The position numbers and the translations under genes were made by a program. From Marivirga sp. ANT-B6 (GTDB lineage: Bacteria; Bacteroidota; Bacteroidia; Cytophagales; Cyclobacteriaceae), in contig LXQK01000012.1 in the NCBI GenBank assembly GCA_001683905.1, positions 1 through 34,709 on the forward strand: a DNA stretch of 34,709 nt, read 5' to 3'. Under the pieces are notes generated by a model, which searched no databases, was not told the DNA's origin, and saw only the letters and a list, made by a program, of their open reading frames with translations. This document shows positions 1 to 19,740 of this stretch, piece after piece (positions within the stretch are counted from its first letter, which is position 1; the number at the start of each line of letters is the position of its first letter).

Positions 1-151
1 TTCGGCGCCGCCAGCTTCCTTTGGCATAGCCATCCCTTCTATGGGGCAGATTCCACCTCACGGTGGACACCCTTGCTATTGGCTAATGGTCGGTAACTAC
101 AAACCCCCATACGGACTTGCACCGTCATGTTATTTGCCATGCACGGCACAC
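1..151 (-). mobile_element. Group II intron, 5' end only (domain I), probably class IIC; continues off the left edge
   Basis: On the minus strand the sequence starts GTGTGCC at 151, matching the GUGYG 5' splice-site consensus. It then shows GGTGCAAGTCCG, TTAGCC, CAAGGGTGTCC, GGAATCTG and GGAAGCTGGCGGC in the order found in domain I of bacterial group II introns. From memory the pattern is close to the Oceanobacillus iheyensis IIC intron, which begins GUGUGCCCGGCAUGG. The intron start lies directly after the U-tract of an intrinsic terminator, the usual insertion site of class IIC introns. Only about 150 bases are in the window, so the reverse transcriptase/maturase ORF (expected in domain IV), domains V and VI and the 3' end cannot be seen. 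Whether the copy is intact is unknown. The group II call is strong; the IIC assignment rests on the start sequence and the insertion site. Confidence 0.88.
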
Positions 152-152
152 C

Positions 153-184
153 AAAAAAAGGCCTTTCCATGAAGGAAAGGCCTT
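153..184 (-). terminator. Intrinsic terminator of the stress-protein gene; group II intron target
   Basis: On the minus strand an uninterrupted 11-bp stem (AAGGCCTTTCC with GGAAAGGCCTT) closes a 5-base loop. It is followed by seven U, then G, then the intron start GTGTG. It lies about 25 bases beyond the stop of the 210-809 gene, so it terminates that gene and serves as the hairpin insertion site of the adjacent intron. Confidence 0.93.
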
Positions 185-209
185 AGTCATATGCTGCTAT
201 TTTCTATTT

Positions 210-809
210 TTATCTTGTTCTGTCGTAAGAACCAGAGCCAGTTGTAGGGCCTGAATCTGTACCCGAGCTATAAACGTCTTCTCCAATGGTGTTCCACTCA
301 TTTTCAAAGTACGCTGCATCGTCCGTAGAACGTGGCGTGACACCCATCACAATACCACCCTCGGCAATGCCTTCTTTATAATACTCAGCTTTTTCCTTCG
401 GAATACCAGAACCGACTAAAGCACCAATCAGTCCGCCTGTAAGACCACCAGCTCCTGCTCCTGCAAGGCCGGCAGCAATTGGGCCAGCTACGATCAGACC
501 TAATCCTGGTATCAAGACAGAAGTACCAATAGCAGCTACCGCACCTACTATAGCACCTAGCGTGCCTCCAATCGCAGATCCTTTTCCAGCAGTTTCCATG
601 GCTTTATCACCCAAGTCTGTATCACGATGTTCATTATCATCCTTAAAATTGGTGTCCCGGGTTTCATCAGACATTAATAAAGTAATTTCATCTTTATTAT
701 ATCCTCTATCTATCAAAGACCTGTAAGCGCGCTCTGCACTATCCCGATCTCTAAACATACCGGTAATAATACCTGTATCTTGATTTTTGTTGTCTCCTGA
801 AATGTTCAT
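210..809 (-). CDS. General-stress-type glycine-zipper protein (YflT/GSP17M-like N-terminus)
   Basis: A 199-residue protein. The N-terminal part (about residues 13-50) reads TGIITGMFRDRDSAERAYRSL, as in the YflT/general stress protein 17M-type domain found in Bacillus and Bacteroidota stress proteins. About residues 72-135 form a long Gly/Ala-rich stretch with regular small-residue spacing (GSAIGGTLGAIVGAVAAIG, then GLAGAGAGGLTGGLIGALVG), a glycine zipper that could insert into or associate with membranes. The stretch around IPKEKAEYYKEGIAEGGIVMGV is typical of the family, and the tail is Ser/Gly/Thr-rich and probably disordered. No enzymatic motif is visible. It is monocistronic, with a perfect terminator downstream and a candidate promoter upstream. 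The exact role is unknown; a stress-related role is inferred from family resemblance only. Confidence 0.8.
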   Translation of the reverse strand: MNISGDNKNQDTGIITGMFRDRDSAERAYRSLIDRGYNKDEITLLMSDETRDTNFKDDNEHRDTDLGDKAMETAGKGSAIGGTLGAIVGAVAAIGTSVLIPGLGLIVAGPIAAGLAGAGAGGLTGGLIGALVGSGIPKEKAEYYKEGIAEGGIVMGVTPRSTDDAAYFENEWNTIGEDVYSSGTDSGPTTGSGSYDRTR

Positions 810-864
810 AATATGGTTATTTAAGTAAAAAAATAATTAATTAAGGTAAAAAATAAGCTTTTAG

Positions 865-896
865 CAAATTTGTAAGCCTTAAATAAACAACCAAAA
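865..896 (-). promoter_or_regulatory. Candidate promoter for the stress-protein gene
   Basis: Reading the minus strand, a TTTG (about 895-892) is followed after roughly 19 bases by CAAATTTG (872-865). This resembles the Bacteroidota -33 TTTG / -7 TAnnTTTG arrangement, but the TA of the -7 element is replaced by CA. It would give a leader of about 50 bases before the ATG at 809. Confidence 0.3.
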
Positions 897-1031
897 TTAC
901 AAGATTATGTTTTTTTTATTTGCCACCGACAGGCAGCACAATTGGGCAAGTATCTTCAGCGTACATATAAGAATGGTTCTTAAAGAAAGGTTAATTCTTA
1001 AATAAGTAATGGGCTTTAGGCAGGGGTCCTT

Positions 1032-1499
1032 CTATGCTCTAAAGAATATCTTATAGCTGACAATATTTCCCGTAGAATCTTTTTGAACCTTATAAAAGTG
1101 GATCGTTTTGAGTCCATTATAATTTTTCCATTTAATTGCCTTATTTTCCTGGAAGCTTGTCGGGGTAGCCTCTTTCAAGCCGAAATATTTTAAACTTTCA
1201 GGTGAAAATGGAATATGCAGAGGATCGTTGATAATGATATCGTTGGACTTGCCTTTCAGATATTGAATTTCCAGGTCGAATTTCTTATACCGTTGTACTA
1301 AAATCTTTCGTGATAATATTTGAAGGGTATAGGTAGTGTCTGGCTCTCCCAAAATTTCAACTACCTCTGTCGGGGAGTGTTGAATCAGGTGAGGAATATC
1401 CAGGACAATAAGGTCTTCTTTCGGTGCTTTCTCTACACAAGAAACCAGCATAACGAAAGACACAAAAAGAAGACCAACGATATTGAAGAAAGATCGCAT
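1032..1499 (-). CDS. Small lipoprotein of unknown function
   Basis: A 155-residue protein with a lipoprotein signal peptide: a hydrophobic stretch followed by LVSC, with Cys21 as the probable lipidated residue. The mature part is mixed alpha/beta in character. It starts with an acidic/lysine segment (VEKAPKEDL), followed by 'LIQHSPTEVVEILGEPD', which recalls the small fold seen in lipoproteins that sense an ascending strand after GEPD (BamE/SmpA-like proteins also carry G-x-P-D turns); this comparison is weak. No catalytic motif was recognised. The gene starts 18 bases after the TonB-receptor stop, on the same strand and with no visible terminator between them, so the two are probably co-transcribed. 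It may be an accessory protein of the receptor. Confidence 0.7.
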   Translation of the reverse strand: MRSFFNIVGLLFVSFVMLVSCVEKAPKEDLIVLDIPHLIQHSPTEVVEILGEPDTTYTLQILSRKILVQRYKKFDLEIQYLKGKSNDIIINDPLHIPFSPESLKYFGLKEATPTSFQENKAIKWKNYNGLKTIHFYKVQKDSTGNIVSYKIFFRA

Positions 1500-1517
1500 G
1501 AGATGATTCTTTGGCTT

Positions 1518-4388
1518 TTACTCTAACAGATACGATACACCCAAAGAAACTGTTCTACCTGTATTGTATGACTGGTAGATGTACTCTATATCGTTATGCT
1601 CCTGGGTAAATTTATAGGCTGGGTTCAATATGTTTTGGAAGGCTAGCTTCGCACTGAACTTTTCAGCAATTCTTTTGGTAACGGCCAAATCTAATACATT
1701 CCTGGGCTGCTCGTAAATATTGGGCGTACCGCCTGTACTTACGACTGTTAGTCGTTGGCCCAGGACATTATATGAAAGGTTTGCTGTGAACCCTTCTATG
1801 CCATACATAAGAAAGGCATTCACAATATAAGGAGACTGGCCGAACAGCTCTCTTTTCGATGAAGCCTCCGGATCGTTCACCCTGATAATTGCTAACTCTG
1901 CTTCGTTGATATCTACTTCAGATTTGATTAACGATACATTAGATCCTATTTTGAAATTATTCATGAAGCCTCCCATAAAGCCCAGACTTTTCCTTATTTC
2001 AAATTCCATCCCATACACGGTAGCCTGGTCTACATTACGGTATAGAAATTTCAAACCATCCTTAGGCTCATTATTAAAAGGACTCGTCGCTCGCTCTATA
2101 GGATTGCTGAAGTTCTTATAGAAACCACTTATAGAAATTATCTCACCTGCCTCTGGAAATAGCTCCCATCTCAGGTCAATATTATCAATTACAGTCCTTT
2201 CCAGGTCTGGATTTCCAGTAACTTCCGCGTCCCCAAGAAAGTCAAAGGTTGTATACCTTGCTAATTCTCTAAAAGTAGGTCTCGCGATGGTTCTTCCATA
2301 AGCTAACCTCAAATTCATGTTTTCTTTTAGCTGCTGCGTGATATTGATAGCAGGTAAAATGTCGTCATTTTTGACATTGGCGAACCTTTGATCTTCAGCA
2401 AGGAATTCGCTGGCATTAGATAAAGAAATATTCGTTTGCTCATACCTTGCACCAGTGCTTATTTTCAACGACTTGCTTACCTGCAGGTCTATCATGGCAT
2501 ATGCAGCCGGCACTTTTTCGTTTCCTGTATAACTACCGCCAAGAGATTCGTTTTTGCCTACGGTAATGCCATATCTATATCGAGGGCCCGCATTGGTTTG
2601 TTGAATGGCTACCAAACCCAAATTCGAATCCGCGAAGAAATCACTAATGTTGCCATCGTAGGGCTGTGTGTTGCTATTGGATTTATATTCGATAATGGTT
2701 TCCTCAAAATCTCTGTCCTTCTCCAGGTATGCGCCACCGAATTTAACTTTGGAACTTAAGCCTGACCCCAGCGAAACGGGAATTTCAAAATTAAGTTTTA
2801 AATCAATATTGGTTTCGTTCAAATTTCTGAAATATCGGCCAGGGTTGCCTGAGGCATTTTCAAAAGTTCTATACGAGGTGCCTTCTGGCGCCTGAACAAT
2901 TACATTGTTAAAAAATCGCAGATCCGGTTCATCCTGTGTAGAATATGTATAGGCTGTAAGCCAGTTGATTTTTATAGGATTATTTGCATCCCCCAGGGCA
3001 TGGTCTCCTTTTAATTGGGCCGAGCTTAATGATCTATGTACATTTTGTATGGCACGGTTTTGTAATTCCTCCTGTTCATTGTTGGCATCGGCAGGAAATG
3101 TTCCCTGAAGAAATCTTGAAGATGCATCTGCGCTTTGGTTTCTCAACAAGTTTAACCCAATCTTATGATTTGAACTGATTTTATAGCTTGTATTGAGCAA
3201 AGCGCCCCACAGTACCGATTCTACGCCTCTGGTATCTGAAAACTCCCTTAAAGTGATCAATTCTGGCGCATCTACTGAACCCGGAAGAAAATATCTGCCC
3301 GTTTTTCCATTGTCGTAGAATTCATAGCTTCGTTGGTAACTTATTCCCCCGATAAAACCCAAAGGCTTTCCTAATAAGGTTTTTTGATTACCTACAGAGA
3401 AAGAATAGCTTTGGTTCAGGAAAGGCAATTTTTTAACAGGATCGAAACTTGTGTTAAAGGCCTTCGAGGCGGCGTCAAGGGCTAAAGCTTGCTGCTCATC
3501 TCTTACCGAAGGGGCAGGAATTGGCCCGTTTAAAATATCGGGAAGCGCATGTGTTCCATCGTCAAAACCAGCAAAAAAAGTTTTTCCCTGTGTATCGGAT
3601 AAAAATGACTTGTTAAAAGTTGCATTTGTATTATATCCCAGCGAAGTCGAGGCTTGAATGGTAAGCCTGTCTGGAAAGTCTTTCGTAGTAATGTTTACAA
3701 ATCCACCACTGAAGCTGGCCGGCAATTCCGGGGAAAATGTTTTGTAAACTACGAGGTTATCGATGAGGTTAGACGGGAACAAATCCATCTGAACGGCATT
3801 TTTATTAGGATCCAGCCCTGGTATTTCAGCATTGTTCAGCGATGTTTTGCTATACCTATCACCCAGGCCCCGAACGATAACATATTTCCCTCCTTCAACA
3901 GACACACCGGTGACGCGCCTCATGGCAGCTGCTGCATCATTGTCATTGCTACGGGCAAATTGCTCAGAGGAAATTCCATCCATGACGAGGCTTGATTTGC
4001 GCTGTATTGTAAGCAATGCAGACTCAGAGTTTTTGATGGCCTCAGCCTGGATAACCACCTCTTCTAGACCAATGGTCTCATCGGTTAATCGTATATTTTG
4101 AATCGTGACCTCTCCGCTATTTACCACAACAGCTTCGATTGTTTTAGCCTGATATGAAACAAATGAGAAAGTTAACGCATGCGTACCAGCGCTAACATTA
4201 TTGATGGAATATTTTCCATCCAGATCAGTAGCTGCACCATTGGCTGTTGCGCTTATAATGACGGTAGCGCCAATTAATGGTTCGCCTGTTTTATCGTCAA
4301 TGACCTGGCCCCTGATCGTACCCGTTTGGGCAGACACTTGGGCAATGAAAATAACCTGAAGTAAGATTAATGTTAGAAAACGCATCAT
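1518..4388 (-). CDS. TonB-dependent outer-membrane receptor with N-terminal CarboxypepD_reg-like domain
   Basis: A 956-residue protein. Signal peptide about 1-20, ending VSAQ. A carboxypeptidase-regulatory-like beta-sandwich follows at about 23-105 (TIRGQVIDDKTGEPLIGATV), then a linker and the plug domain at about 125-235, with the signature GKYVIVRGLGDRYSKTSLN and GLDPNKNAVQMDLFP. The rest (about 240-956) alternates turns and amphipathic strands as in a 22-strand barrel and ends in a beta strand (TVSLGVSYLLE). The plug motif with 'RRVTGVSVEGG' marks a Bacteroidota receptor family that recurrently neighbours beta-helix lipoproteins such as the gene at 4565-6253. It would import an unidentified substrate across the outer membrane using TonB energy. 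No siderophore- or SusC-specific feature was recognised; there is no SusD partner. It has its own promoter (4405-4412) and is probably followed by the small lipoprotein in one transcript. Confidence 0.95.
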   Translation of the reverse strand: MMRFLTLILLQVIFIAQVSAQTGTIRGQVIDDKTGEPLIGATVIISATANGAATDLDGKYSINNVSAGTHALTFSFVSYQAKTIEAVVVNSGEVTIQNIRLTDETIGLEEVVIQAEAIKNSESALLTIQRKSSLVMDGISSEQFARSNDNDAAAAMRRVTGVSVEGGKYVIVRGLGDRYSKTSLNNAEIPGLDPNKNAVQMDLFPSNLIDNLVVYKTFSPELPASFSGGFVNITTKDFPDRLTIQASTSLGYNTNATFNKSFLSDTQGKTFFAGFDDGTHALPDILNGPIPAPSVRDEQQALALDAASKAFNTSFDPVKKLPFLNQSYSFSVGNQKTLLGKPLGFIGGISYQRSYEFYDNGKTGRYFLPGSVDAPELITLREFSDTRGVESVLWGALLNTSYKISSNHKIGLNLLRNQSADASSRFLQGTFPADANNEQEELQNRAIQNVHRSLSSAQLKGDHALGDANNPIKINWLTAYTYSTQDEPDLRFFNNVIVQAPEGTSYRTFENASGNPGRYFRNLNETNIDLKLNFEIPVSLGSGLSSKVKFGGAYLEKDRDFEETIIEYKSNSNTQPYDGNISDFFADSNLGLVAIQQTNAGPRYRYGITVGKNESLGGSYTGNEKVPAAYAMIDLQVSKSLKISTGARYEQTNISLSNASEFLAEDQRFANVKNDDILPAINITQQLKENMNLRLAYGRTIARPTFRELARYTTFDFLGDAEVTGNPDLERTVIDNIDLRWELFPEAGEIISISGFYKNFSNPIERATSPFNNEPKDGLKFLYRNVDQATVYGMEFEIRKSLGFMGGFMNNFKIGSNVSLIKSEVDINEAELAIIRVNDPEASSKRELFGQSPYIVNAFLMYGIEGFTANLSYNVLGQRLTVVSTGGTPNIYEQPRNVLDLAVTKRIAEKFSAKLAFQNILNPAYKFTQEHNDIEYIYQSYNTGRTVSLGVSYLLE

Positions 4389-4404
4389 TTATCAAAATTT
4401 TATG

Positions 4405-4412
4405 CAAAGGTA
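4405..4412 (-). promoter_or_regulatory. -7 promoter element TACCTTTG for the TonB receptor
   Basis: The minus strand carries TACCTTTG, an exact match to the Bacteroidota -7 consensus TAnnTTTG, 17 bases upstream of the receptor ATG. A canonical -33 TTTG is not evident; one AATGTTAA copy (4425-4418) lies just upstream of the -7 element. Confidence 0.6.
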
Positions 4413-4417
4413 GGGTC

Positions 4418-4494
4418 TTAACATTTTCCCATAGTTATTGGTATTTTATGTAAATGTTAATTTTTAACATTATTTGCGAAAATGAAATAACATT
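4418..4494. repeat. Repeated TTAACATT/AATGTTAA motif, including an inverted pair, upstream of the TonB receptor
   Basis: Copies: TTAACATT at 4418-4425, AATGTTAA at 4453-4460, TTAACATT at 4464-4471 and the shorter TAACATT at 4488-4494. The middle two form a perfect 8-bp inverted repeat with a 3-base spacer. The same-orientation copies are spaced 46 and 23-24 bases. The position, just upstream of and partly overlapping the receptor promoter, suggests a regulator-binding region. The regulator is unknown, and the AT-rich background makes chance matches possible. Confidence 0.45.
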
Positions 4495-4500
4495 AAATTA

Positions 4501-4536
4501 ATATGGCAAAGAACTTGCATAAGTTCTTTGCCATAT
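4501..4536 (-). terminator. Perfect 16-bp hairpin between the beta-helix lipoprotein gene and the TonB receptor
   Basis: ATATGGCAAAGAACTT and its exact reverse complement flank a 4-base loop (GCAT). The hairpin lies 28 bases beyond the stop of the 4565-6253 gene. On the minus strand it is followed by TAATTTAATGTTATT, a weak rather than continuous U-tract. It may terminate the upstream gene or stabilise its 3' end. Confidence 0.65.
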
Positions 4537-4564
4537 CTGTAAAGGGTAAAAAGGTTAAAAAGGA

Positions 4565-6253
4565 TTACTCAAAAAGGCCATAGGCATCTGCTGCTGTCCA
4601 ACCAATCAACCAATTGTTACTTCCGAAAGCGCCCTTGTAAGTTACCGTTTCGTAGGTAAAGCCGTTGACAGGAGCAGCGGGATAAGCAGCCAAACCACTA
4701 TAGGCAGGACCCGTAGTTGCAGGTATCGGGTTTAAAGCGTTGACTGCTATACCGCCCAAAGCTGGGTTTTCATACGTATTGGCATTTGCCGTAAGATGGG
4801 TAGCAAGTGGCGCTAAACCCTCAGCAACCTGATCTAAAGTAGTGTAGGCACCTATGCTCCAAAAAATGTTGTTCGAGAATACTAGCTCACCATTTTCTAA
4901 TCGATCTCTTGTATTCTTACCTGGTGCACCAACATCAGTAAGATTAATACCTGACCTAAATTGGGTTATGATGCTGTTTCTAATAAACCCGCCATTCCCT
5001 TCAGTCATAAAGATAGCTGGTGCCCCACCTGGAGTGGCACCTAATTGGGTAGCAGTTCCAATTAAAGTCATGTTAAAGACGGTTGGCTGAGAGAAAACGT
5101 CTGATCCCAGGTTGTCACTGTGAGCTCCGTCAAGCTCCATTCCACGATCAGAACCAGCAAAGTCAGGCACCTGGTAAGCGAACCAAAACTGGTTCTGTCC
5201 TCTATAACCAAAATCCCAATCAAAAGCGTCGTCCTGATTATAAATAGAAGCTAGGTAACTCGTGTTAACCGTACCTCCAAACCACTCAAAACCGTCATCA
5301 TCATTACCATATACTTCAATATATGATATCTCTGTTCCTGAACCTACACCACCCATGGTTAAGCCGTTAATCTCGTTGGCGGCACCTATAAGTGTTCCCC
5401 CATGACGGATAGAAATATATTTTAATTTACCAGAATTATCGTCTGCAACGTTGCCACCATAAATCCCTCTTGCTTCTGTTTCAGGTATTCCTTCGATTAT
5501 TGTTTGGGTAGCCACATGGTTGATAGGCGCTTTTCCCAGCACAATTAATCCACCCCAGAGCCCTCTGGCGTTTACAGCGAGATCATCAGGATCTTCCGTA
5601 TCGTCATCCTCAGCGGTGAAGATAATTGGATTTTCCTCAGTGCCTACTGCCATTATTTTACCCCCACGTGCTATGATTAACGCACTGGCGCCGGCTCCCT
5701 GACCTGGCTGTCCTTTAACAACTGTTCCTGCCTCTATGGTTAAAGTTTGTCCATCATTAACATAAACAAAACCCCGTAGGATATAAATATTGTCTGCTGT
5801 CCATGTCACTGTACCTGTACCATTGGCGCTGTTCAGAACCTCCACGATAGGCTTTTCAACCACGGGAGCTTCCGTGACACTTACTGTTGCGGCTTCAGTG
5901 GCTGTTAGTGAAGGACTCTGTGCGTCATTCACTGTTAGCGTGATGGTCTGGCTTCCGGCAGTGGCAGGAGCCGTGTAGGCTACGTTGACAGTTCCGGATG
6001 TCTTACCTGTAAGGTCATTTAAGTTTGTTATTGAAGCTGTCCCAGCAGATGCCTGCACAGTTATAGTTTTTACATTTCCAGGTGCATTAACACTAAACGC
6101 TAATGTGGTTTCATTGCCAACCTGTACAGTTGTTCCAGTGGGAACAGTGATAGTTGGCCGTGCTGCAACCGTAGGATCATCATCCTTATCGCAAGCCGAA
6201 AAACCGACCGTAAGGGTGGCCATAATTAAAAATAGGTACGAAAATCTTTTCAT
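4565..6253 (-). CDS. Surface-exposed beta-helix lipoprotein, partner of the TonB receptor
   Basis: A 562-residue protein. A lipoprotein signal ends FSAC with Cys21, followed by DKDDD. A run of acidic residues just after the lipidated Cys is the known Bacteroidota signal for export to the cell surface. Residues about 30-130 resemble an Ig-like/Big-type beta-sandwich (PTITVPTGTTVQVGNETTLAF, later AYTAPATAGSQTITLTV). From about 150 the pattern changes to a right-handed beta-helix-like region with ILRGFVYVNDGQTLTIEAG, ALIIARGGKIMAVGT and NPIIFTAEDDD, followed by asparagine/aspartate-rich turns. Databases often mislabel this family 'multidrug transporter'; nothing here supports transport by itself. 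Because it neighbours the receptor gene, a surface capture role is a reasonable inference. The ligand is unknown. It is separated from the receptor by a hairpin and a promoter, so it is probably a separate transcription unit. Confidence 0.85.
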   Translation of the reverse strand: MKRFSYLFLIMATLTVGFSACDKDDDPTVAARPTITVPTGTTVQVGNETTLAFSVNAPGNVKTITVQASAGTASITNLNDLTGKTSGTVNVAYTAPATAGSQTITLTVNDAQSPSLTATEAATVSVTEAPVVEKPIVEVLNSANGTGTVTWTADNIYILRGFVYVNDGQTLTIEAGTVVKGQPGQGAGASALIIARGGKIMAVGTEENPIIFTAEDDDTEDPDDLAVNARGLWGGLIVLGKAPINHVATQTIIEGIPETEARGIYGGNVADDNSGKLKYISIRHGGTLIGAANEINGLTMGGVGSGTEISYIEVYGNDDDGFEWFGGTVNTSYLASIYNQDDAFDWDFGYRGQNQFWFAYQVPDFAGSDRGMELDGAHSDNLGSDVFSQPTVFNMTLIGTATQLGATPGGAPAIFMTEGNGGFIRNSIITQFRSGINLTDVGAPGKNTRDRLENGELVFSNNIFWSIGAYTTLDQVAEGLAPLATHLTANANTYENPALGGIAVNALNPIPATTGPAYSGLAAYPAAPVNGFTYETVTYKGAFGSNNWLIGWTAADAYGLFE

Positions 6254-6451
6254 TGTGTAAGTTTTAGTTTGTTATTCACTTCCGCAAAGTTGAGTAATAT
6301 TTGTTAAGTCAGGGCTTATATTACATTACCATATTGTTAAAACCAGCCATCGTATATTACCTCAAGTTTAAGAAAATATCATAAACCTTCGTTTTTGGGG
6401 TATCTCGGCTGTTTGAAACAATGAAGGTCTATTTTTTCGTTATAGATACAT

Positions 6452-7798
6452 ATGAAAGCAATCTATGCGCTATTCTCTTTAATAATTATTGTGGCATCTT
6501 CCGCAGATACGCTGGCCACGATGTGGATTGGAGCTAGTGATGGGTCCAGAGATGGCAACGGCACGTTGGAGCATCCTTATGACTTAAAAACCATTTTCGG
6601 ATCCGGAGGTGGTATAAATCCTAAAAAAATTCAGCCCGGGGACACCATTGCGATACGCGGAGGTACTATTAATGATAGTTATTGGGTGCAACTCTATGGA
6701 ACCGAAAATGCACCTATTGTTGTCATGCCGTATCAGCAGGAAAAGGTAATATTTGATACCAACTTCCCAAGGAAAGTAAAAAACGAATTAACATGTGCCA
6801 TAAAATTGTCGGGGGATTACATCATATTCAGAGACTTCACCTTTACCAGTACTATCCAACATCGGGTATCGGAGGGTACTACCGGTAAAAGTATGGGAAT
6901 CAACACGCGATCAGGTATGTATCTCTACGCCACCAATTCTAAGGTGATCAACTGTGTTTTTCATAACCTCACCAGCAATGGTATCCTATGGCTGGCGCAA
7001 TCCAATAATACGTTGTTGTATGGCTGCCTTTTTATGATGAATGGCTGGGATGGCTCCGACCGTGGTCATGGACATGCTATCTACATAAGAAATAACAATG
7101 TTTCTAAACCCAAAGTAATTGCCAATAATGTTTTTCACAATAGCATGGGGCATCAAATTAACGGATACGGTGAAATAGAAGGCTTTATCGTAAAGAATAA
7201 CGTTGCTTTTGAGGGAGGTAACTTAAGCAAGCATGGAGCTGAAAGGAATATATTTTTCGGGGGCTCTGGTAGAAGCAAGACCATCGACGGTTTGGTAATC
7301 ACCGACAACATCACCTATCATCGTGGAGAAGGCAGAGGCTTTGAGGTAGGTTATATTGAAGAAAATAAGAAATCTGTGGTCATTAAGAATAATATCATCC
7401 TGGGTGGCAGGCTGCTGGTGGTAAAAGAAGGATTTGAAAACCTGGAGGTAGCGGACAACCAACTTAAAATGACTGATCTTGTGAAGGTTCAGCCTAATCA
7501 ATATGACCACAAAAAAGCGACAATTACAGTCCTAAATCCGGAGGAAAAACCAACAATCAACGTTGATCTATCGGCTGTTTTACCAAAAAATACACGTTTT
7601 AAACTAATAGACTACCAGAACTATTATGGCAAACCCGTATTAGAAGGCATCTATAAAGGAGGCACTATTACATTACCGCTTCACCTGAAAGAGATACTTG
7701 AACCGATAGGGGACGTAAATGTGAAGCCAACACATACCGGCCCGGAATTTAACAGCTTCATGCTTTTAGCTGAGCAAGACCTTTACCCCCCAAGTTGA
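6452..7798 (+). CDS. Secreted right-handed beta-helix protein (possible polysaccharide lyase-like fold)
   Basis: A 448-residue protein with a signal peptide (about 1-22, a hydrophobic stretch then SSADTLA). The start of the mature part (WIGASDGSRDGNGTLEHPYDL, then IQPGDTIAIRGG) is the typical cap of parallel beta-helix proteins, where a 'G-T-x-x-x-P' segment precedes the first turn. Turns of the helix follow as IFRDFTF, KVINCVFHN, NNTLLYGCLF, KVIANNVFHN, FIVKNNVAF, LVITDNITYH and VVIKNNIIL. Family members include pectate lyases and other polysaccharide-acting enzymes, but I could not identify a catalytic set, so activity is not assigned. The C-terminal 100 residues (VDLSAVLPKNTRFKLIDYQN) look like a separate beta domain. 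It diverges from the lipoprotein gene with 198 bases between them. Its stop abuts the stop of the convergent MoxR gene. Confidence 0.8.
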   Translation: MKAIYALFSLIIIVASSADTLATMWIGASDGSRDGNGTLEHPYDLKTIFGSGGGINPKKIQPGDTIAIRGGTINDSYWVQLYGTENAPIVVMPYQQEKVIFDTNFPRKVKNELTCAIKLSGDYIIFRDFTFTSTIQHRVSEGTTGKSMGINTRSGMYLYATNSKVINCVFHNLTSNGILWLAQSNNTLLYGCLFMMNGWDGSDRGHGHAIYIRNNNVSKPKVIANNVFHNSMGHQINGYGEIEGFIVKNNVAFEGGNLSKHGAERNIFFGGSGRSKTIDGLVITDNITYHRGEGRGFEVGYIEENKKSVVIKNNIILGGRLLVVKEGFENLEVADNQLKMTDLVKVQPNQYDHKKATITVLNPEEKPTINVDLSAVLPKNTRFKLIDYQNYYGKPVLEGIYKGGTITLPLHLKEILEPIGDVNVKPTHTGPEFNSFMLLAEQDLYPPS

Positions 7799-8788
7799 TT
7801 ACTTATTGATTGGCACCTTATTCAATATGTTTCGGATCAGGTCCTTTGTATTGACACCATCTGCTTCAGCTTCATAATTCAGGATAATTCGATGGTTAAA
7901 AACGTCTGGTGTAACTTCTTTGATGTCCTCCGGTAATACATAATCCCTGTTATCAAAAAAGGCAATGGCCTTTGCAGCCAGGTTCAGGTTGATGCTTGCT
8001 CTTGGCGAAACACCAAACTGAATATAATTGGCCTCATCATGCAGACCGTAATCGGCAGGTTTACGTGTTGCAAAAACGAGTTCCACAATGTACTTTTCCA
8101 GCGAATCAGAAATATTGACCTGGTTGATCTCATCCCTTATCTGGAAGATATCGTTTTTTGTAAGAATGGTATTTACCTCTCCTTTAAAGCTTAAGTTAGA
8201 CATCCTTCGCATTACCTCCAGTTCAGATTCCTTTGAAGGATAGTTTACGTAAACCTTCATCATAAACCTGTCCATCTGAGCCTCTGGTAAGGGATAAGTA
8301 CCTTCCTGATCCACTGGATTTTGTGTTGCCAATACCAGGAAGGGCCTGTCTAGAAGAAAAGTCGTTTCGCCGATGGTTACTTGCTTTTCCTGCATGGCCT
8401 CCAGCAAAGCTGCCTGAACTTTTGCAGGTGATCTGTTGACTTCATCAGCAAGAATCAGGTTTGAGAAAATTGGTCCTTGCTTCACCTGAAACTCCGAGAT
8501 TTGCTGGTTATAGATCATGGTACCTACGAGATCTGAAGGCATCAGATCTGGCGTAAACTGAATGCGTTGAAAGTTGAGGTGCAACACCTTCGCTAAGGTA
8601 TTTACGGTTAGTGTTTTAGCTAATCCAGGCACACCTTCCAATAGAATATGCCCTTGGGTAAATAGGCCTATCAGCAATCGATTTATCATATACTCTTGCC
8701 CTACCACAACTTTCCCCACCTCCTGGAATACTTGATTTATCTTTGCCTGGTGATCTTTTCTGACGTCTCTATCTGTTAGCTCTTCCAT
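7799..8788 (-). CDS. MoxR-family AAA+ ATPase
   Basis: A 329-residue protein. The AAA_3 core carries Walker A GVPGLAKT (about 52-59), Walker B LILADEVNR (about 112-120), the sensor segment FLVLATQNPVDQEGTYPLPEAQMDRF typical of MoxR, and an AAA-lid region with GVSPRASINL. MoxR ATPases act as chaperones that mature partner proteins, commonly with VWA or DUF58 proteins encoded next door. None of those partners follows here: downstream is the convergent beta-helix gene, with zero bases between the stops. The gene upstream on the same strand is only a short questionable ORF. The partner is therefore presumably encoded elsewhere. The ATG at 8788 is supported by the usual family N-terminus (EELTDRDVRKDHQAKI). 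Confidence 0.93.
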   Translation of the reverse strand: MEELTDRDVRKDHQAKINQVFQEVGKVVVGQEYMINRLLIGLFTQGHILLEGVPGLAKTLTVNTLAKVLHLNFQRIQFTPDLMPSDLVGTMIYNQQISEFQVKQGPIFSNLILADEVNRSPAKVQAALLEAMQEKQVTIGETTFLLDRPFLVLATQNPVDQEGTYPLPEAQMDRFMMKVYVNYPSKESELEVMRRMSNLSFKGEVNTILTKNDIFQIRDEINQVNISDSLEKYIVELVFATRKPADYGLHDEANYIQFGVSPRASINLNLAAKAIAFFDNRDYVLPEDIKEVTPDVFNHRIILNYEAEADGVNTKDLIRNILNKVPINK

Positions 8789-8797
8789 GAATGATTT

Positions 8798-9043
8798 TTA
8801 TTTTTTCTTTCCGCTTTTACGAATATCTAATTTCGGTATCTCAGGCTTGATTACCTCCATAACCTCACCCAATGTATGAAACGCTAAGTTAAATAAATTA
8901 TGATTAAATGCTGTGCAATTAAATGTTGCTTTTTGAGATGTAAAACTGTCAAACACCCGGAAGCTGGTATTAACCCTAGGGATTATACCACTAAAAGCAT
9001 TAAACGGCAACACTGACAAAGGCTTCTCCAATACCAAAAGCAC
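8798..9043 (-). CDS. Questionable short ORF upstream of the MoxR gene
   Basis: An 81-residue ORF with a GTG start ending 9 bases before the MoxR ATG. No family was recognised. The last 20 residues (from an internal ATG, MEVIKPEIPKLDIRKSGKKK) read like a genuine basic protein tail, whereas the first 60 are unusually rich in Phe, Asn and Ser and lack clear secondary-structure pattern. It could be a short real protein translated with MoxR, the 3' remnant of a decayed gene, or chance. There is no other gene between 8789 and 9281. Confidence 0.25.
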   Translation of the reverse strand: MLLVLEKPLSVLPFNAFSGIIPRVNTSFRVFDSFTSQKATFNCTAFNHNLFNLAFHTLGEVMEVIKPEIPKLDIRKSGKKK

Positions 9044-9088
9044 GCTGGCGATAAAAATTTGTTATTTATTTTCGTCTGATGCATTACC

Positions 9089-9112
9089 ATATATACGTCG
9101 AAAAGTATATAT
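9089..9112. repeat. Inverted repeat ATATATAC-N8-GTATATAT in the region upstream of the receiver gene
   Basis: Perfect 8-bp arms (9089-9096 and 9105-9112) separated by GTCGAAAA. It lies about 170 bases upstream of the receiver-protein start, in a 238-base gene-free stretch (9044-9281) that otherwise contains only a weaker TTGAC-N9-GTCAA repeat at 9126-9144. A dimeric regulator site is possible; AT-rich chance pairing cannot be excluded. Confidence 0.35.
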
Positions 9113-9281
9113 ATTATGCAAGCCTTTGACAGTCGACACGTCAATTGTCACAGTATAAGTTTAACCGAACGTTAAAGGAGAAATAAATTAAATATTACTG
9201 TGAAAAATATATGTCATCCCGCTTAACATTCTCTACTTGTGAAGCGTTGTATAAATATAAATTCTACCAATTTTCAAAGAT

Positions 9282-9794
9282 ATGGGTGCTATTCAATTAA
9301 CCGATGCAGACAGGCTACCGCGTGCCAAAAGGATCATCAAGGGATCCATTCGGGTTCTATTGATAGGAAATAATCCTATAGAATTGAGTCCAATATATGA
9401 CGCTTTAAATAACTTTAGCAAGAAGAAGTTTAAGACAGAAATTGCCTTTAATATTCATGACAGTATTCTGAAAGCTATAAAATTTAAACCACGATGTATT
9501 GTGTTGGATGATAATGTGGAAAGAGAGAACATCAGGACGTTTATGGAGCAACTGCGTGGGGATGAACGGACAGCTGCTATCCCAGTTACGTTAATGAAAA
9601 ACTCAAACCGAAGTGAAAGCTTTTCTGCAGGCATTCAGGATTTTGTACTAAAGGAAAATTTGACTACTGATCGTATCGCCAGAAGTATCTTTAACGCCAT
9701 CAGGTATTCGAAGACCCAGAGATTTCTATTTAACACCTATTACAAAAACAAATCGAAGGTGCTCAATTTCTTCAACGAAAAAGAAGCATCGTGA
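9282..9794 (+). CDS. Stand-alone degenerate response-regulator receiver protein
   Basis: A 170-residue protein whose central part (about 22-140) follows the CheY-like order: beta strand IRVLLIGNN, helix, then CIVLDDN (Asp76 or Asp77 at the phosphoacceptor position), PVTLMKNS, and DFVLKENL with the conserved Lys124. The acidic pair that binds Mg2+ after the first strand is replaced by Gly-Asn-Asn (29-31), so normal phosphorylation is doubtful. There is no output domain. The C-terminal tail (about 143-170) is basic and aromatic (RFLFNTYYKNKSKVLNFFNEK). This resembles the small receiver proteins that Bacteroidota place beside hybrid histidine kinases, but no kinase is nearby. Function is probably signal transduction by protein contact; partner unknown. 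Confidence 0.75.
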   Translation: MGAIQLTDADRLPRAKRIIKGSIRVLLIGNNPIELSPIYDALNNFSKKKFKTEIAFNIHDSILKAIKFKPRCIVLDDNVERENIRTFMEQLRGDERTAAIPVTLMKNSNRSESFSAGIQDFVLKENLTTDRIARSIFNAIRYSKTQRFLFNTYYKNKSKVLNFFNEKEAS

Positions 9795-9805
9795 CGCTTT
9801 AGATT

Positions 9806-11050
9806 TTACAGCAGTCTTTTCAACCGAAATTTTTTCTTGATATACTGGTTATCGCGTCGTATTTTCATCCTTATGCGCTTACCAGGCTTAGACCGAACCA
9901 GGTTGTTGATATAAGCAAGGCTTAGCTGATCACCCTGGTTGCTATTGAATTTTTCAATAATGTCACCCTTTCTGATATCAGCTTTTGCGGCGGGAGAGTT
10001 CTTGCGTACTTCAGTTACGATAATGATATCTAGCTTTGCTCCTAAAGTTATAAACTCCATGCCACTCATATTGTAATCAAATTTACCTTTATAACCGCTG
10101 TTTTTACGTAGGTAAACTTTGTGGTTGAAATAATCAAAAATAACATGAAATCTGGTGAATATACCTCCTCCGAGTGTCCCTTGTCTGGCCGTTCGTGCAA
10201 TGATGTCGATGTATGTTTCCTCATCAGGATAGGAGGCAATCACGCCCTCGAACATAAACTTGTCGAATTCTAACGTCTTGATGCGTCCGATATGGCCATT
10301 GATGTCTCCACCCAAACCACGACCCAAATTAGCGTCCAGATTGATCTCCGGAAGTAAAATATCATTTCTATCAGATTGATGCAACAACAGAGAATGGCTC
10401 GCCCCTGTATCCATCATCAATTTAGTCGTAATGATGCTGCCATTGAATTGCATAATCTCCGCGTTTAGATAAGGTTTAGAGTCTTCGATAGTAATAGGAA
10501 TCGCTTCAAATGACTTTCTCACATTAAATGAGGTTGGTTCATGCAAAGTAAGTACTCGCCTTTGGTAATCGATTTCGACGATGAATCGACTGAAAACATC
10601 ATAGCCGATAATGCCGTGTACATTTTTACCAAGACTATTGCTCAATTGAAGATAATCCTCTTCGAGTACGAGCATCGACTGGTTTTTCCCGTCAGCACCG
10701 GGTAGATGAAAAGACATGTCATTAGCCACAAGAGCGGTAATGCCCTGGCCGCCGGCAGCCCCTACCAATTCAATGCTTCTGGAATACTTGATTTTTAAAA
10801 AATCAGTCATTGTTTTATCCATAAGGATGGCTGATCGCACACCCGTATCCAATATAAATAGAAGCGGTAAAACCCCATTGAGGGTCACTGGTATTACAAT
10901 AAGGTTATTGATAGACTCAAATGGAAAGGCAACACATTTTTTACCCGGAGGAAGCTGAAAACCAAAGGATTGAGCAAGGCAAGGTTGTAACTCACAACAT
11001 AAAAATGCTATGACAATTAACTTTGATAAACTCTGATTTAAACCCGCCAC
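9806..11050 (-). CDS. Exported two-domain retropepsin-like aspartyl protease with C-terminal PDZ
   Basis: A 414-residue protein starting at GTG (the only fitting start that preserves the signal peptide; an ATG at 11052 is in another frame). Signal peptide about 1-26 (VIAFLCCELQPCLAQS). Two aspartyl-protease domains each carry a DTG: FILDTGVRSA with Asp68 and LMMDTGASHS with Asp214, each followed by a family-like flap and IIGYDVFSRF or GGGIFTRFHVIFDY segments. A PDZ domain occupies about 325-405 (VRKNSPAAKADIRKGDIIEKF). A single chain with both catalytic loops could form an intramolecular active pair. The PDZ suggests binding of protein C-termini in the periplasm. The family is widespread in Bacteroidota; substrates are not known. 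It is convergent with the receiver gene, 11 bases apart. Confidence 0.88.
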   Translation of the reverse strand: MAGLNQSLSKLIVIAFLCCELQPCLAQSFGFQLPPGKKCVAFPFESINNLIVIPVTLNGVLPLLFILDTGVRSAILMDKTMTDFLKIKYSRSIELVGAAGGQGITALVANDMSFHLPGADGKNQSMLVLEEDYLQLSNSLGKNVHGIIGYDVFSRFIVEIDYQRRVLTLHEPTSFNVRKSFEAIPITIEDSKPYLNAEIMQFNGSIITTKLMMDTGASHSLLLHQSDRNDILLPEINLDANLGRGLGGDINGHIGRIKTLEFDKFMFEGVIASYPDEETYIDIIARTARQGTLGGGIFTRFHVIFDYFNHKVYLRKNSGYKGKFDYNMSGMEFITLGAKLDIIIVTEVRKNSPAAKADIRKGDIIEKFNSNQGDQLSLAYINNLVRSKPGKRIRMKIRRDNQYIKKKFRLKRLL

Positions 11051-11146
11051 ATCACACCTCCGTTTACTGACTAATTTAATAATTAATACGATCTGAATAA
11101 ACTATTTCGTAAATCAAACCATAAAAAGTTTCACTTCGTAAGCGTA

Positions 11147-11581
11147 TTAACCGAATACTTTTCGATAAATAGGCTTTCTATATAAAAACTGAAGATATAG
11201 TATCGGATAAAGTACCCACGTGAACAGTAGGTTGTAAGCATAAAAATCTATATCGTCTATGATCTCGCTTCCACCTTCTATCCTTTTGATGATATGCGTA
11301 TGCTTCCATTTACTAAGAAAAAATGGAAGTTTGTCACCTACATCAATGAAATGGAACTTGGAGTCGTCGAGAGAATCTTCAATGATTTGACTTTCCCACA
11401 TTTGCTTAAATAAAACGAAATCCAGCTCGATGCTTACCAAGTCCCCTTTTTCACACCCATCAAAACGGAGCAGCCTTACAAATGGAAATGGTGGATTCAG
11501 CCGAAGAAAAAGCTGCTCGTTAAATCCGTCCTTGACCTTTAGGAAATCTTGTTGGACTTTTGTACTTATTTTTAATTTCAT
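11147..11581 (-). CDS. SRPBCC (START-like) superfamily protein
   Basis: A 144-residue protein. The order of segments (KVQQDFLKVKDGFNEQLFLRL, then LLRFDGCEKGDLVSIELD, then WKHTHIIKRIEGGSEIIDDIDFYA, then a hydrophobic C-terminal helix LLFTWVLYPILYLQFLYRKP) matches the ligand-binding SRPBCC proteins common in Bacteroidota: a helix-grip fold with a final long helix. No catalytic residues are recognised and the bound ligand is unknown. The family is sometimes annotated as cell-division inhibitor or polyketide cyclase, without support here. It lies 96 bases upstream of the protease start on the same strand, so it may share a transcript with it. Confidence 0.7.
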   Translation of the reverse strand: MKLKISTKVQQDFLKVKDGFNEQLFLRLNPPFPFVRLLRFDGCEKGDLVSIELDFVLFKQMWESQIIEDSLDDSKFHFIDVGDKLPFFLSKWKHTHIIKRIEGGSEIIDDIDFYAYNLLFTWVLYPILYLQFLYRKPIYRKVFG

Positions 11582-11696
11582 CTTATCGGGAATGATGCAA
11601 AGATCGATTAACTTCTAAAGAACTTTCTTCCAAATATCAAGCTATTATTTTGCTACGTAGCTTTTGATTACATGGATCGAATTCCACCAAATGCAA

Positions 11697-11726
11697 AAAG
11701 GGCTACTTTATAAAAAGCAGCCCTTT
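11697..11726 (-). terminator. Intrinsic terminator of the PRC-barrel gene
   Basis: The minus strand folds AAAGGGCT/AGCCCTTT with an inner CTTT/AAAG stem, one mismatch and a short loop, followed by five U. It lies 15 bases after the PRC-barrel stop codon. Confidence 0.8.
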
Positions 11727-11741
11727 ATGAAAGCGATTGTT

Positions 11742-12989
11742 CTACTTATTGTTGAGGTAGTCACCGGTACCTTTTTGACCCCGCCTTGGGTTTCTGGCGC
11801 TCTTAAACATACTCTCATCGAAATGCTGATGGTTATAAAACTCATTCGAAGAATAGCTATTTTCGGAATCTGTCGACATATCCTTATCAAGATACTTTCT
11901 CAATTTGGTCTCATAATCTCTGGAAACTGGTCCACCTCCATATTCAGGCGAATCATGAATATTACTAAAGTCAAGTTTCTGTATGAGAACCTTATCATCC
12001 TCCTCATCCAGCTTTGCATACCCAATAGGAATCAATAGTCTTTTTTCCTTATTTTGTTGGCTCCCCATCCGTTCTGAGCCTGAACGTTCATTATCCTGAC
12101 CACCATTTCCACCAGCGTGAAAACCTCTTCCACGATTTACATCTCTGTCACGATTCTTCTCTACTTCAGCCAGATTTTCCTCTCTCATTCTCTCCGTATC
12201 TTCCAAGTCTCTATCGCCGAAATTGCTATCCAAATCCGACGCTCGTGCCGCACCTCTTGGTTCGGTTTCTAGTGAAGATTCTTCATTATCCATCCTAATG
12301 CCACTGTTGGTATCTCTTTCACTTCCGAAATCTGCAGACGTTCTGGTTTCCATATCCCGGTCGCTTTCAGCATTAATATTTGAATCACCAAGACCAGATG
12401 TATCAATCTCGGAGGCATCTCCTGCCGAACGACCCGACTTATGTAAATCACCGGTTCTGTCCCTATCATTCAGATCAAACCCTCCTCCGGTTGCACTTTC
12501 ATCACCTATATTCCTATCACCATGCATTTCTGCACTACTGCGCGTTTCCATCGAACGATCCTTGGCCTTGTCGTAGTCGCTGTTTCCAAAACCCACATCC
12601 CGATTTGAATCATCATCCTCTATGGCTTTGTTTTGTGAAAAAAATCCTTCAGAACGGCTGCTGTCATCATCTTGATCACTTATATATGAGCCTTTCGACC
12701 GCTTGCTTAGATCGCTGTCGCTCCCCGTATAATCAACAGAACTCGTACTTCGACCACCATCCTTCATAGATGTTTCAACATCCACAACCAGATAGCGTAC
12801 TTTCATTTGCTTAGGATCTACAATTAGCTCCTCTACTTTTCCCATTTTGTTTCCATGCTCATCAAGCACATCCCAACCCCTAACATCTGGGTCGTTATCA
12901 TCTACTTCATAATCATCCAACTCGTTTAAGGCATATAAATGTCTATTTTTTTCTTCTTCGTTACGATTTATTCTATTGTCATTTTCCAT
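11742..12989 (-). CDS. PRC-barrel protein with long low-complexity centre
   Basis: A 415-residue acidic, hydrophilic protein with no signal peptide. Residues about 33-75 form a PRC-barrel domain (DVRGWDVLDEHGNKMGKVEELIVDP, then KVRYLVVDVE). A second PRC-like segment is at about 316-345 (RLLIPIGYAKLDEEDDKVLIQKLDF). Between them lies about 240 residues rich in Asp, Ser, Arg, Glu and Gly and clearly disordered. This centre contains an internal repeat: METRSSAE at 147 and METRTSAD at 213, spaced 66 residues. The layout resembles stress-associated PRC proteins of soil and freshwater bacteria, whose biochemical role is unknown. It follows the 13013-13654 gene after 23 bases and ends at an intrinsic terminator, so the two probably form one unit. 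The many plus-strand ORFs here are shadows of this composition. Confidence 0.8.
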   Translation of the reverse strand: MENDNRINRNEEEKNRHLYALNELDDYEVDDNDPDVRGWDVLDEHGNKMGKVEELIVDPKQMKVRYLVVDVETSMKDGGRSTSSVDYTGSDSDLSKRSKGSYISDQDDDSSRSEGFFSQNKAIEDDDSNRDVGFGNSDYDKAKDRSMETRSSAEMHGDRNIGDESATGGGFDLNDRDRTGDLHKSGRSAGDASEIDTSGLGDSNINAESDRDMETRTSADFGSERDTNSGIRMDNEESSLETEPRGAARASDLDSNFGDRDLEDTERMREENLAEVEKNRDRDVNRGRGFHAGGNGGQDNERSGSERMGSQQNKEKRLLIPIGYAKLDEEDDKVLIQKLDFSNIHDSPEYGGGPVSRDYETKLRKYLDKDMSTDSENSYSSNEFYNHQHFDESMFKSARNPRRGQKGTGDYLNNK

Positions 12990-13012
12990 AATTTCTGTGT
13001 TTTCAATCTATA

Positions 13013-13654
13013 TTAATTACTTTTGTTGGTAGAAGCCATTGATTCTACAACCTGGCTCGATTTTTCAAAAAATGTCTTTACGCTATTTTTTTGATTTAGC
13101 GTCATTTCGCTTGGCTGGATAGCATCTGCTGCTGTTTTCACTTCATTTACCTGCTGATTCATATTTGGATAATTAGCCTGCTGAATGGACATCATTAAAT
13201 CAGTAGCGGCAGCAAAAGCGCTTTTTATGCTATCGGCATGCTGCGTTGATGCTTCATTTTGTCGGATAAAATTGGCTTTACGCTTCATCTTACTTCTCTT
13301 TGCATCAATTTCTGCCCCTTCAATATCCTTTTGTTCTACGAGGGCATCAAGCGCAGCGGCCAGTTTCATAATTCCTTCACTTGTATAGGCATGGCTTAGA
13401 TCCATTTCGCCGTCAGTTTCCTGCTGTGCAAAGGTTACATATTCTTCTACCTCATCTGGCATTTCATCGCTAATGATAGCTACCGCACCCGGCTCGCTTC
13501 CAATAGTCTCAGTGGTTGTGGCAGGTTCGTCGTCGATATTGTCGTCGTCAAAAGCTTCAATGAGAAGCCATACTAAGATAGCGGCGATGATCAGTCCAAT
13601 AATCCAGGGCCAAATGTTGTTGTTTTTCTTTTTTTGAATTTCTATTTCTGCCAT
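13013..13654 (-). CDS. Single-pass membrane protein of unknown function
   Basis: A 213-residue protein. The short N-terminus is basic (EIQKKKNNN), one transmembrane helix spans about 14-34 (IWPWIIGLIIAAILVWLLIEAF), and an acidic linker (DDDNIDDEPATTTET) follows. The remaining 120 residues are largely helical and charged (AALDALVEQKDIEGAEIDAKRSKMKRKA, later NYPNMNQQVNEVKTAADAI). Positive-inside topology places the bulk outside the cytoplasm, anchored at the inner membrane. I do not recognise a family. Its neighbour, the PRC-barrel gene, starts 23 bases downstream. The 232 bases upstream (13655-13886) hold no gene; a small GGCC-type hairpin (GGCCAGC..GCGGCC) sits in the probable leader. Confidence 0.7.
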   Translation of the reverse strand: MAEIEIQKKKNNNIWPWIIGLIIAAILVWLLIEAFDDDNIDDEPATTTETIGSEPGAVAIISDEMPDEVEEYVTFAQQETDGEMDLSHAYTSEGIMKLAAALDALVEQKDIEGAEIDAKRSKMKRKANFIRQNEASTQHADSIKSAFAAATDLMMSIQQANYPNMNQQVNEVKTAADAIQPSEMTLNQKNSVKTFFEKSSQVVESMASTNKSN

Positions 13655-13886
13655 AATACTGTGATTAATTAAAAATTGTTAAATAAATAAATTAGGCCAG
13701 CAAAAGCGGCCACTTAAAAAATGTAAAAAGCAGATAAAAAGCGTTAATAAGGATACGTCTTTAATCTATACTAATAAAGACAAAAGGGGGTGTTATTGTT
13801 TAGAAGAACTTTATATAATTATCGTTTTTAAAAAAAATTGGAAAGGGCTTGTTACTTTACTGCAATAATCTATTTGCTCAGTACAG

Positions 13887-15980
13887 TTAGCTTATTCTAC
13901 TCCAGTTAATGGCGGTCTTCTTCTGCGCATCGATTTGGCGGCGTACTGGTGCATTTTCTGCGTTGTTAAGTTCAGGATCCACAGCTAAGAGTGCTTGTGC
14001 GGCTTGCCTCGCTTGTTGCAAAATATCGCCATCTTTTCCCAGATCTGCAATCAATAAATCCAAAACCCCACTCTGCTGGGTGCCGGTTATTTCCCCTGGA
14101 CCACGTAATTTCAGGTCTATATCGGCAATCTCAAATCCATTGTTGGTTTGTACCAGGGTGTTAATGCGTAACCGGCCCTCTTTACTTAGCTTGTATCCTG
14201 TTGTTAGGAAACAATATGACTGATCGGCACCCCGACCGACACGGCCACGCAACTGATGCAACTGAGCCAGGCCAAATCGTTCGGCATTTTCGACCACCAT
14301 TACGGACGCATTAGGAACATTCACCCCAACTTCTATGACAGTGGTGGCCACCATTATCTTGGTTTCATTCCTGACAAAACGCTGCATTTCAAAATCCTTG
14401 TCTTCTGGCTTCATTTTACCATGCACTATGCTAATAGGCACCCCTGGAAAAGCCCTGCTAATACTTTCGTACCCTTCCATCAGATTGTTGTAATCCAATT
14501 TTTCAGACTCTTCTATTAGCGGATATACGATATATACCTGCCTACCCAGGGCGATTTGTTCTTTTAGGAACCCAAACAACCGCAACCTGGCCGAATCAAA
14601 AAAATGAACCGTTTTTATGGGTTTTCGTCCCGACGGCAGTTCGTCTATGACAGACACATCCAGATCCCCGTACAATGTCATAGCCAACGTGCGCGGTATG
14701 GGTGTAGCCGTCATGACCAGCACATGCGGATAGATATTGTCGGTTTTCTGCCACAACTTAGCCCGCTGTGCCACACCAAATCGATGCTGCTCATCGACAA
14801 CAGCCAGTCCCAGTTTATGGAATTGCACCTCATCCTCAAGTAAGGCGTGGGTTCCTACCAGGATATTGGTTTCGCCAGATTGAAGCTTTTCGTGTAGTAT
14901 CCTACGGTCCTTTTTTTTGGTGGACCCTGTTAACTTAGCGATACGAATGCCAATTTTTTCTGCATATGCCTTTAAACCCTGGAAATGCTGGTCCGCGAGT
15001 ATTTCAGTGGGAGCCATGAGTGCTGCCTGCGCCTGGCTACCGACAGCCTGCAACATACAGATAAAAGCAACCATGGTTTTACCACTTCCTACATCGCCCT
15101 GCAATAGCCTATTCATCTGCTTCCCGGAGCGCATATCATGATAGGCTTCCTTGATAACACGCTTTTGTGCGTCGGTAAGGGTAAAGGGCAGGTGATCATG
15201 ATAGAAATCCTTAATCAGCTGGGTGTTGGTGAGCACAATCCCTTTGTATTTTTCAATGCGTGTAAGCCTTAACTTCAATAGCCGCAGTTGAATATAGAAA
15301 AACTCTTCGAATTTTAGCCGAAACTGGGCTGCCTGAAGCTGCACCGAATCAGAGGGGAAATGTATTTGTACTACCGCGTCTTTTTTGGGTAATAGCTTGT
15401 AACCATTCATTATGGGTAAGGGCAAGGTTTCAGGAATGTGCGCGAAAGCGAGCTTCAGCAAAGCTTCCTGTAGCATGGCGATACCTTTACTGTCGAGCAA
15501 CCTACGCTTCAGTTTTTCTGTCGTCGAATAAATAGGTTGATAATGAAGCCCGCCGGTTTGCTGGTTTCCCGGAATATCAATTTCAGGGTGTGCTATATTG
15601 TATTTACTTCCATAGCGCACTGGTTTACCAAATACAAGATATGCTGTCCCCGGCTTCAATTTTTTTACCACCCAGTTGATCCCTTTGAACCAAACAAGTT
15701 CAATGGTTCCCGACGAATCTGCCAGTTGTACAACAAGGCGTTTTTTTAGACCAGAGCCCACCAATTCTATATGCCGGACCTCACCATAAAGCTGAATATT
15801 CGGTATATCCTCGTTTATTTCTGAAATCCTATAGATTTTAGACCGATCTTCGTACCTGAATGGATAATGCTGGATCAGGTCCCCATAGGTGAAGATATTT
15901 AACTCTGTATTGAGAAGAGCAGCTTTTTGTGGTCCTACGCCTTTTAAAAATTCTATCTTCGTCTCAAAGAAACTGGCCAT
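13887..15980 (-). CDS. recG: ATP-dependent DNA helicase RecG
   Basis: A 697-residue protein of standard RecG length. The N-terminal wedge/OB part (about 1-160) is followed by the SF2 helicase core: Walker A GDVGSGKT (about 295-302), the segment APTEILADQH (motif Ia), DEQH box VVDEQHRFG (about 395-402), TATPIPRT (motif III region, 424-431), and the C-terminal QLRGRVGRG (motif VI) with the TRG region. RecG reverses stalled replication forks and branch-migrates Holliday junctions. It is the last gene of the mutY-ssb-gldE-gldD-recG run. Its ATG abuts the gldD stop (TAAATG), a sign of translational coupling. No terminator is obvious in the 232 bases that follow to the membrane protein gene. Confidence 0.97.
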   Translation of the reverse strand: MASFFETKIEFLKGVGPQKAALLNTELNIFTYGDLIQHYPFRYEDRSKIYRISEINEDIPNIQLYGEVRHIELVGSGLKKRLVVQLADSSGTIELVWFKGINWVVKKLKPGTAYLVFGKPVRYGSKYNIAHPEIDIPGNQQTGGLHYQPIYSTTEKLKRRLLDSKGIAMLQEALLKLAFAHIPETLPLPIMNGYKLLPKKDAVVQIHFPSDSVQLQAAQFRLKFEEFFYIQLRLLKLRLTRIEKYKGIVLTNTQLIKDFYHDHLPFTLTDAQKRVIKEAYHDMRSGKQMNRLLQGDVGSGKTMVAFICMLQAVGSQAQAALMAPTEILADQHFQGLKAYAEKIGIRIAKLTGSTKKKDRRILHEKLQSGETNILVGTHALLEDEVQFHKLGLAVVDEQHRFGVAQRAKLWQKTDNIYPHVLVMTATPIPRTLAMTLYGDLDVSVIDELPSGRKPIKTVHFFDSARLRLFGFLKEQIALGRQVYIVYPLIEESEKLDYNNLMEGYESISRAFPGVPISIVHGKMKPEDKDFEMQRFVRNETKIMVATTVIEVGVNVPNASVMVVENAERFGLAQLHQLRGRVGRGADQSYCFLTTGYKLSKEGRLRINTLVQTNNGFEIADIDLKLRGPGEITGTQQSGVLDLLIADLGKDGDILQQARQAAQALLAVDPELNNAENAPVRRQIDAQKKTAINWSRIS

Positions 15981-16598: not shown

Positions 16599-16617
16599 AA
16601 CATAAAGCTAATCATAA

Positions 16618-18012: not shown

Positions 18013-18033
18013 AATTTAGTGTTTAAGTAAAAT

Positions 18034-18462: not shown

Positions 18463-18505
18463 AGTCTTTCGTTTGAGTTAAAAAAATATTGTCTTATAAA
18501 ATTAG

Positions 18506-19588: not shown

Positions 19589-19617
19589 TTTTTATTCGGG
19601 CCTAAACCCACAACTTA

Positions 19618-19625
19618 CAAAGGTA
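19618..19625 (-). promoter_or_regulatory. -7 promoter element TACCTTTG for mutY
   Basis: Minus-strand TACCTTTG matches TAnnTTTG exactly, about 30 bases before the mutY ATG. Identical octamers precede the TonB receptor and glmM. It would be the promoter of the mutY-ssb-gldE-gldD-recG unit. Confidence 0.6.
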
Positions 19626-19667
19626 TATTTTTGACGTTATTTATTTTTTATTTACTGCCTCAACCTA

Positions 19668-19675: not shown

Positions 19676-19740
19676 TAAGATCAAAATAGGTGGTTCTTAG
19701 TATTTTAAAGAATTATTTAAACTCTAAATTAAAAAAAACA

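Follow-up and report, generated by a model that had tools for sequence, protein, structure and literature searches.

The first letters of a 34,709-nt stretch of Marivirga sp. ANT-B6 (Bacteroidota; contig LXQK01000012.1, here C24), referred to below as the window, raise the question whether a group II intron starts directly behind the terminator of a host gene and, if so, what kind of element it is. A preliminary description of the locus had proposed a group IIC-like intron whose 5′ end sits exactly behind an intrinsic terminator.

The terminator and the intron start at the window edge

Read 5′ to 3′ on the minus strand, the window edge consists of the stop of a 199-aa ORF, a hairpin, a T run, a single G and then GTGTGCCGTGCATGGC, which starts at position 151 and continues to the contig end. 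The ORF (positions 210–809, minus strand) is the host gene whose terminator served as target, and encodes a protein rich in glycine that weakly resembles the YflT heat-stress domain. The earlier label of a stress-protein gene is kept here in a weaker form: the YflT likeness is present, but the match to PF11181 (22 bits, E=2.3e-4) is below the 26.2-bit cut-off.

The terminator hairpin (positions 158–184, minus strand) has a perfect 11-bp stem and a 5-nt loop, with the sequence AAGGCCTTTCC-TTCAT-GGAAAGGCCTT from 184 to 158. The T run occupies positions 159–153, the G is at 152 and GTGTGCC starts at 151. The T7 run and the G (152–159, minus strand) form the 5′ exon end, which contains IBS1 (final four bases TTTG) in the register given by the covariation of EBS1 and IBS1 in the family. 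Two of the seven T residues pair inside the 11-bp stem, leaving a free tail of U5 plus G. The terminator region folds at −26.0 kcal/mol (z = −4.9 relative to shuffled controls), and among 15 terminator-like sites in positions 1–20000 of the window this hairpin alone combines a stem of at least 10 pairs with five straight T residues after it. The perfect 11-bp terminator, U7, one G, GTGTGCC and domain I motifs listed in the preliminary description are all found on the minus strand.

Identity to another copy in this genome, on contig C11, assigns positions 7–151 (minus strand) to a group IIC intron: they are its first 145 nt, with the 5′ GTGTG and the beginning of domain I, before the contig end interrupts the element. 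The domain I motifs include GACGGTGCAAGTCCGT and GTCCACCGTGAGGTGGAATCTG. The window starts at base 1 of C24 and the DNA to the left is unassembled, so that any reverse transcriptase (RT), domain V and 3′ end that this copy has would lie off the contig. The six terminal bases (1–6, minus strand) are unlike the paralogue (GCCGAA vs. AAATAT), and may reflect a contig-end artefact or true divergence.

Rfam group II models gave no match to the window. When the C11 copy was cut at the end point of the window copy, its best group II match fell to 11.6 bits, which is not above chance, compared with 125.7 bits uncut. Since the equally cut C11 copy is missed too, we attribute the miss to truncation; the Infernal search for domain I suggested in the preliminary description is thus uninformative for the window, and its positive outcome comes from the full C11 copy (RF02001).

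A second, RT-bearing copy in the same genome

A search of the same genome returned one near-identical stretch, on contig C11. Window positions 151–7 and L006:4754–4899 are identical at 144 of 146 positions, the differences being one single-base gap and one substitution. Immediately upstream of the C11 copy is a strong terminator (GGCTACCTGAAAAATCGGGTAGCCTTTTTTTG, z = −6.8) downstream of a DUF4136 gene; the preliminary description had suggested looking for other copies after terminators in the genome. The copy comprises a complete domain I (RF02001, 125.7 bits) together with a domain II–III region (RF01998, 46.1 bits). Its RT/maturase frame is open over 386 aa and runs into the contig end, with the last ∼38 aa off the contig. 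The protein matches the group II RT model TIGR04416 with 393 bits, contains RVT_1 and GIIM domains only, with no endonuclease domain, and has GsI-IIC RT as its nearest solved structure (E=5e-121; LtrA, E=8e-34). On the basis of these RT matches, the domain composition and the proximity to GsI-IIC RT, the C11 element was assigned to class C (IIC). A 25-nt insertion in domain I (CCCCATAGAAGGGATGGCTATGCCA; window ∼21–46, L006 ∼4859–4885) is common to both copies; the nearest relatives, L118 and L026, lack it.

A DNA search of the genome with the 3′ part of an Algoriphagus antarcticus intron (L026) led to contig C73. Its opening (L144:1–82) contains domain V–VI of this intron lineage, folds as DV-DVI and ends in the intron 3′ end ACCCGAT, followed by tpiA, a gene named from its protein sequence and the synteny of relatives. 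A search of the genome with RF00029 (domain V) returned two introns of another type and none of this lineage. Because uvrA immediately precedes tpiA, in the same orientation, in four relatives, and C11 carries the uvrA and DUF4136 genes, C73 is most likely, judged by this synteny, the far side of the C11 copy; the gap between C11 and C73 was estimated at ∼120 nt from the A. antarcticus intron. The alternative that C73 supplies the missing 3′ half of the window copy was rejected, because the gene in front of tpiA in relatives is uvrA rather than the YflT gene. An RT and a domain V had been expected to the left of the junction: for the window copy this expectation falls off the contig, whereas in the paralogue the RT and domain I are present and domain V most likely so, as judged by synteny.

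Terminators and EBS1-IBS1 pairing among relatives

The association with terminators was analyzed at 80 loci encoding relatives of the C11 RT, with 5′ ends located by intron-internal motifs alone. This yielded 63 distinct 5′ junctions, including those of the window and C11, which were compared with 4,000 random positions. A hairpin of the required score ending no more than 12 nt from the junction was present at 57 of the 63 junctions and at 41 of the 4,000 random positions. When at least five T residues in the last ten bases were also required, the counts were 56/63 and 15/4,000; the 63 junctions are non-independent, many coming from a few copy-rich genomes, and several of the failing ones (e.g., L044 and L093) have hairpins overlooked by the simple detector. 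In the Marivirga genome itself, each of the three copies whose 5′ end can be seen lies behind a terminator. Matches on contigs C252 and C187 proved to be look-alike terminators without an intron.

These frequencies bear on the reading that, at the window edge, a terminator and an intron-like sequence lie side by side by chance, in favor of which there is the shortness of the sequence and nothing else. Against it stand both the rarity of such terminators at random positions and the position of the three copies in the same genome, and the paralogue already refutes it; its probability is practically nil.

EBS1, taken as the tetranucleotide that follows TTGC in domain I, covaries with the last four exon bases across lineages. 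The EBS1-IBS1 complementarity reached 57.1 out of 60 over 15 EBS1 types, compared with a maximum of 50.3 in 20,000 shuffles. EBS1 was assigned by a regular expression, and the AGTA picked in L033 and L034 is probably an error (their visible loops are TAAA); it was kept, which lowers the observed score. With AAAA as EBS1 and TTTG at the exon end, the C11 copy can pair at three of the four bases; the EBS1 of the window copy itself is off the contig. The exon G at −1 is present in both copies. In the usual register it forms a G·A mismatch, and a one-base slip (CAAAA/UUUUG) would pair five bases. The preliminary description had called the junction intact to the base. The target and the intron 5′ end are indeed both seen, but the −1 G facing an A in the EBS1 of the C11 copy calls for a reservation.

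Reading of the window copy and comparison with known introns

We conclude with high confidence that the first bases of the window belong to a mobile intron of group IIC (IEP class C) that retrohomed in sense orientation directly behind the terminator of the YflT-like gene. This conclusion is drawn from the junction and its hairpin, the 99% identical paralogue behind a different terminator, the RF02001, RF01998 and RT matches of that paralogue, the full-length A. antarcticus relative, and the family-wide statistics. The proposed 5′ end exactly behind a terminator is thereby borne out, by the junction and by the RT-bearing C11 copy. The points against it are that (i) the window itself has no Rfam match; (ii) the −1 G is unpaired in the usual EBS1 register; and (iii) the last six bases depart from the paralogue. 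By analogy with the class, recognition by the excised intron RNA and its RT/maturase would involve both the stem-loop of the terminator and a short pairing of EBS1 with IBS1 within the T tract, the intron RNA would reverse-splice into the recognized strand, and the RT would copy the inserted RNA into DNA.

Group II intron remnants are common in bacteria, and the window copy might be a truncated or decayed one, of which the first ∼145 nt are left, perhaps with a 3′ piece. The departure of its last six bases from the paralogue would fit, as would the existence of a decayed relative on contig C25 of the same genome (C25:8863–9039). However, identity at 144 of 146 positions to a copy with an RT points to recent spread, near-identical repeats are places where contigs are expected to break, the window copy continues uninterrupted far past the deletion point of the C25 remnant, and it keeps the family-consensus G (AAGGAAGC) at a place where the C11 copy has A. 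We therefore consider a remnant rather unlikely, and retain the mobile IIC intron as the reading of the window copy.

The C25 remnant (L115:1864–2040) is 177 nt long, with ∼64 nt of the 5′ end fused to domain V–VI and the 3′ end, and lies directly behind a strong terminator other than that of the window. Its domain V has CCCUG/CAGGG where most relatives have CCGUA/UACGG, with pairing preserved. An RT fragment at the C25 contig end was rejected as a IIC piece, being followed by a different domain V and lacking a IIC look.

ORF-less IIC introns were found on the minus strands of L118 (G150:C1; 652 nt) and L117 (G018:C83; 629 nt), in two other genera of the family, with domain I–III matches, full 3′ ends and positions behind terminators. 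Both genomes encode RT genes elsewhere, and mobilization in trans by these RTs is possible. The window copy could by the same token be an ORF-less intron of ∼650 nt, mobilized in trans by the C11 RT, a reading for which these two introns and the 84% identity of L118 to the window copy across the first 106 nt can be cited. At 99% identity, the RT-bearing C11 copy is a much nearer relative of the window copy and shares with it the 25-nt domain I insertion that L118 lacks; an ORF-less window copy appears very improbable. More broadly, IIC introns with an RT, ORF-less introns of ∼650 nt and minimal forms of 177 nt (a 5′ end joined to DV-DVI) might coexist as one mixed population in this Bacteroidota family, all behind terminators, the short forms being mobilized in trans by class C RTs; that this is so, and that the window copy could belong to it, is doubtful.

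Other group II elements were also observed. L122 (G067:C15, ∼1049–1580, plus strand) is an internally deleted IIC intron behind a terminator, in which a C-terminal RT piece alone is kept. In the Marivirga genome, C212 (L007) carries an unrelated group II intron with RF01999 and RF00029 matches and an intact RT, near an ORF resembling an IS110-type transposase (named by eye). C129 (L145:1170–1440, minus strand) carries an RT-less fragment directly behind an ORF end, with a domain II–III likeness (RF01998, 24 bits, below the cut-off) and a domain V-like hairpin.

A 2015 review (PMC4424553) states that IIC introns insert behind intrinsic terminators. Such insertion has been measured over 304 genomes in PMC8919778, where Robart et al. 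(2007) is cited for low transcription; the proposal in the preliminary description that the intron RNA would be made only by readthrough or from a promoter of its own agrees with that paper. The terminator stem-loop with IBS1 is described as a mobility substrate in PMC7161350; in the passages of PMC8919778 and PMC7161350 that refer to Robart et al. (2007), such insertion appears as established by 2007. The window element is in this respect ordinary. It confirms the spread of a class C intron via terminator hairpins in a Bacteroidota genome, at a low-cost site that spares coding genes, and provides a clean two-copy example within a family with covarying EBS1-IBS1. Since the same 2015 review calls ORF-less bacterial introns rare, the ORF-less IIC introns of the relatives are a better lead than the window copy.

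The element resembles B.h.I1, GsI-IIC and Ta.it.I1 in the GTGYG 5′ end (seen in the window) and the sense orientation directly behind a terminator hairpin, and, as judged from the paralogue and relatives, in the IIC-type domain I, the class C RT without an endonuclease domain and, probably, the short EBS1-IBS1 pairing. It differs from them in detail only, by the 25-nt domain I insertion and the −1 G opposite an EBS1 A. The full-length A. antarcticus IIC intron (∼1.98 kb), which has a domain V match and a terminator upstream, encodes an RT 80% identical to the C11 RT and has the same EBS1 loop, but its exon end is TTTT rather than TTTG and it lacks the 25-nt insertion. The group IIC-attC integron introns belong to the same intron class and also use a stem-loop DNA target; in contrast to them, the present element has inserted at an intrinsic terminator with a T tract.
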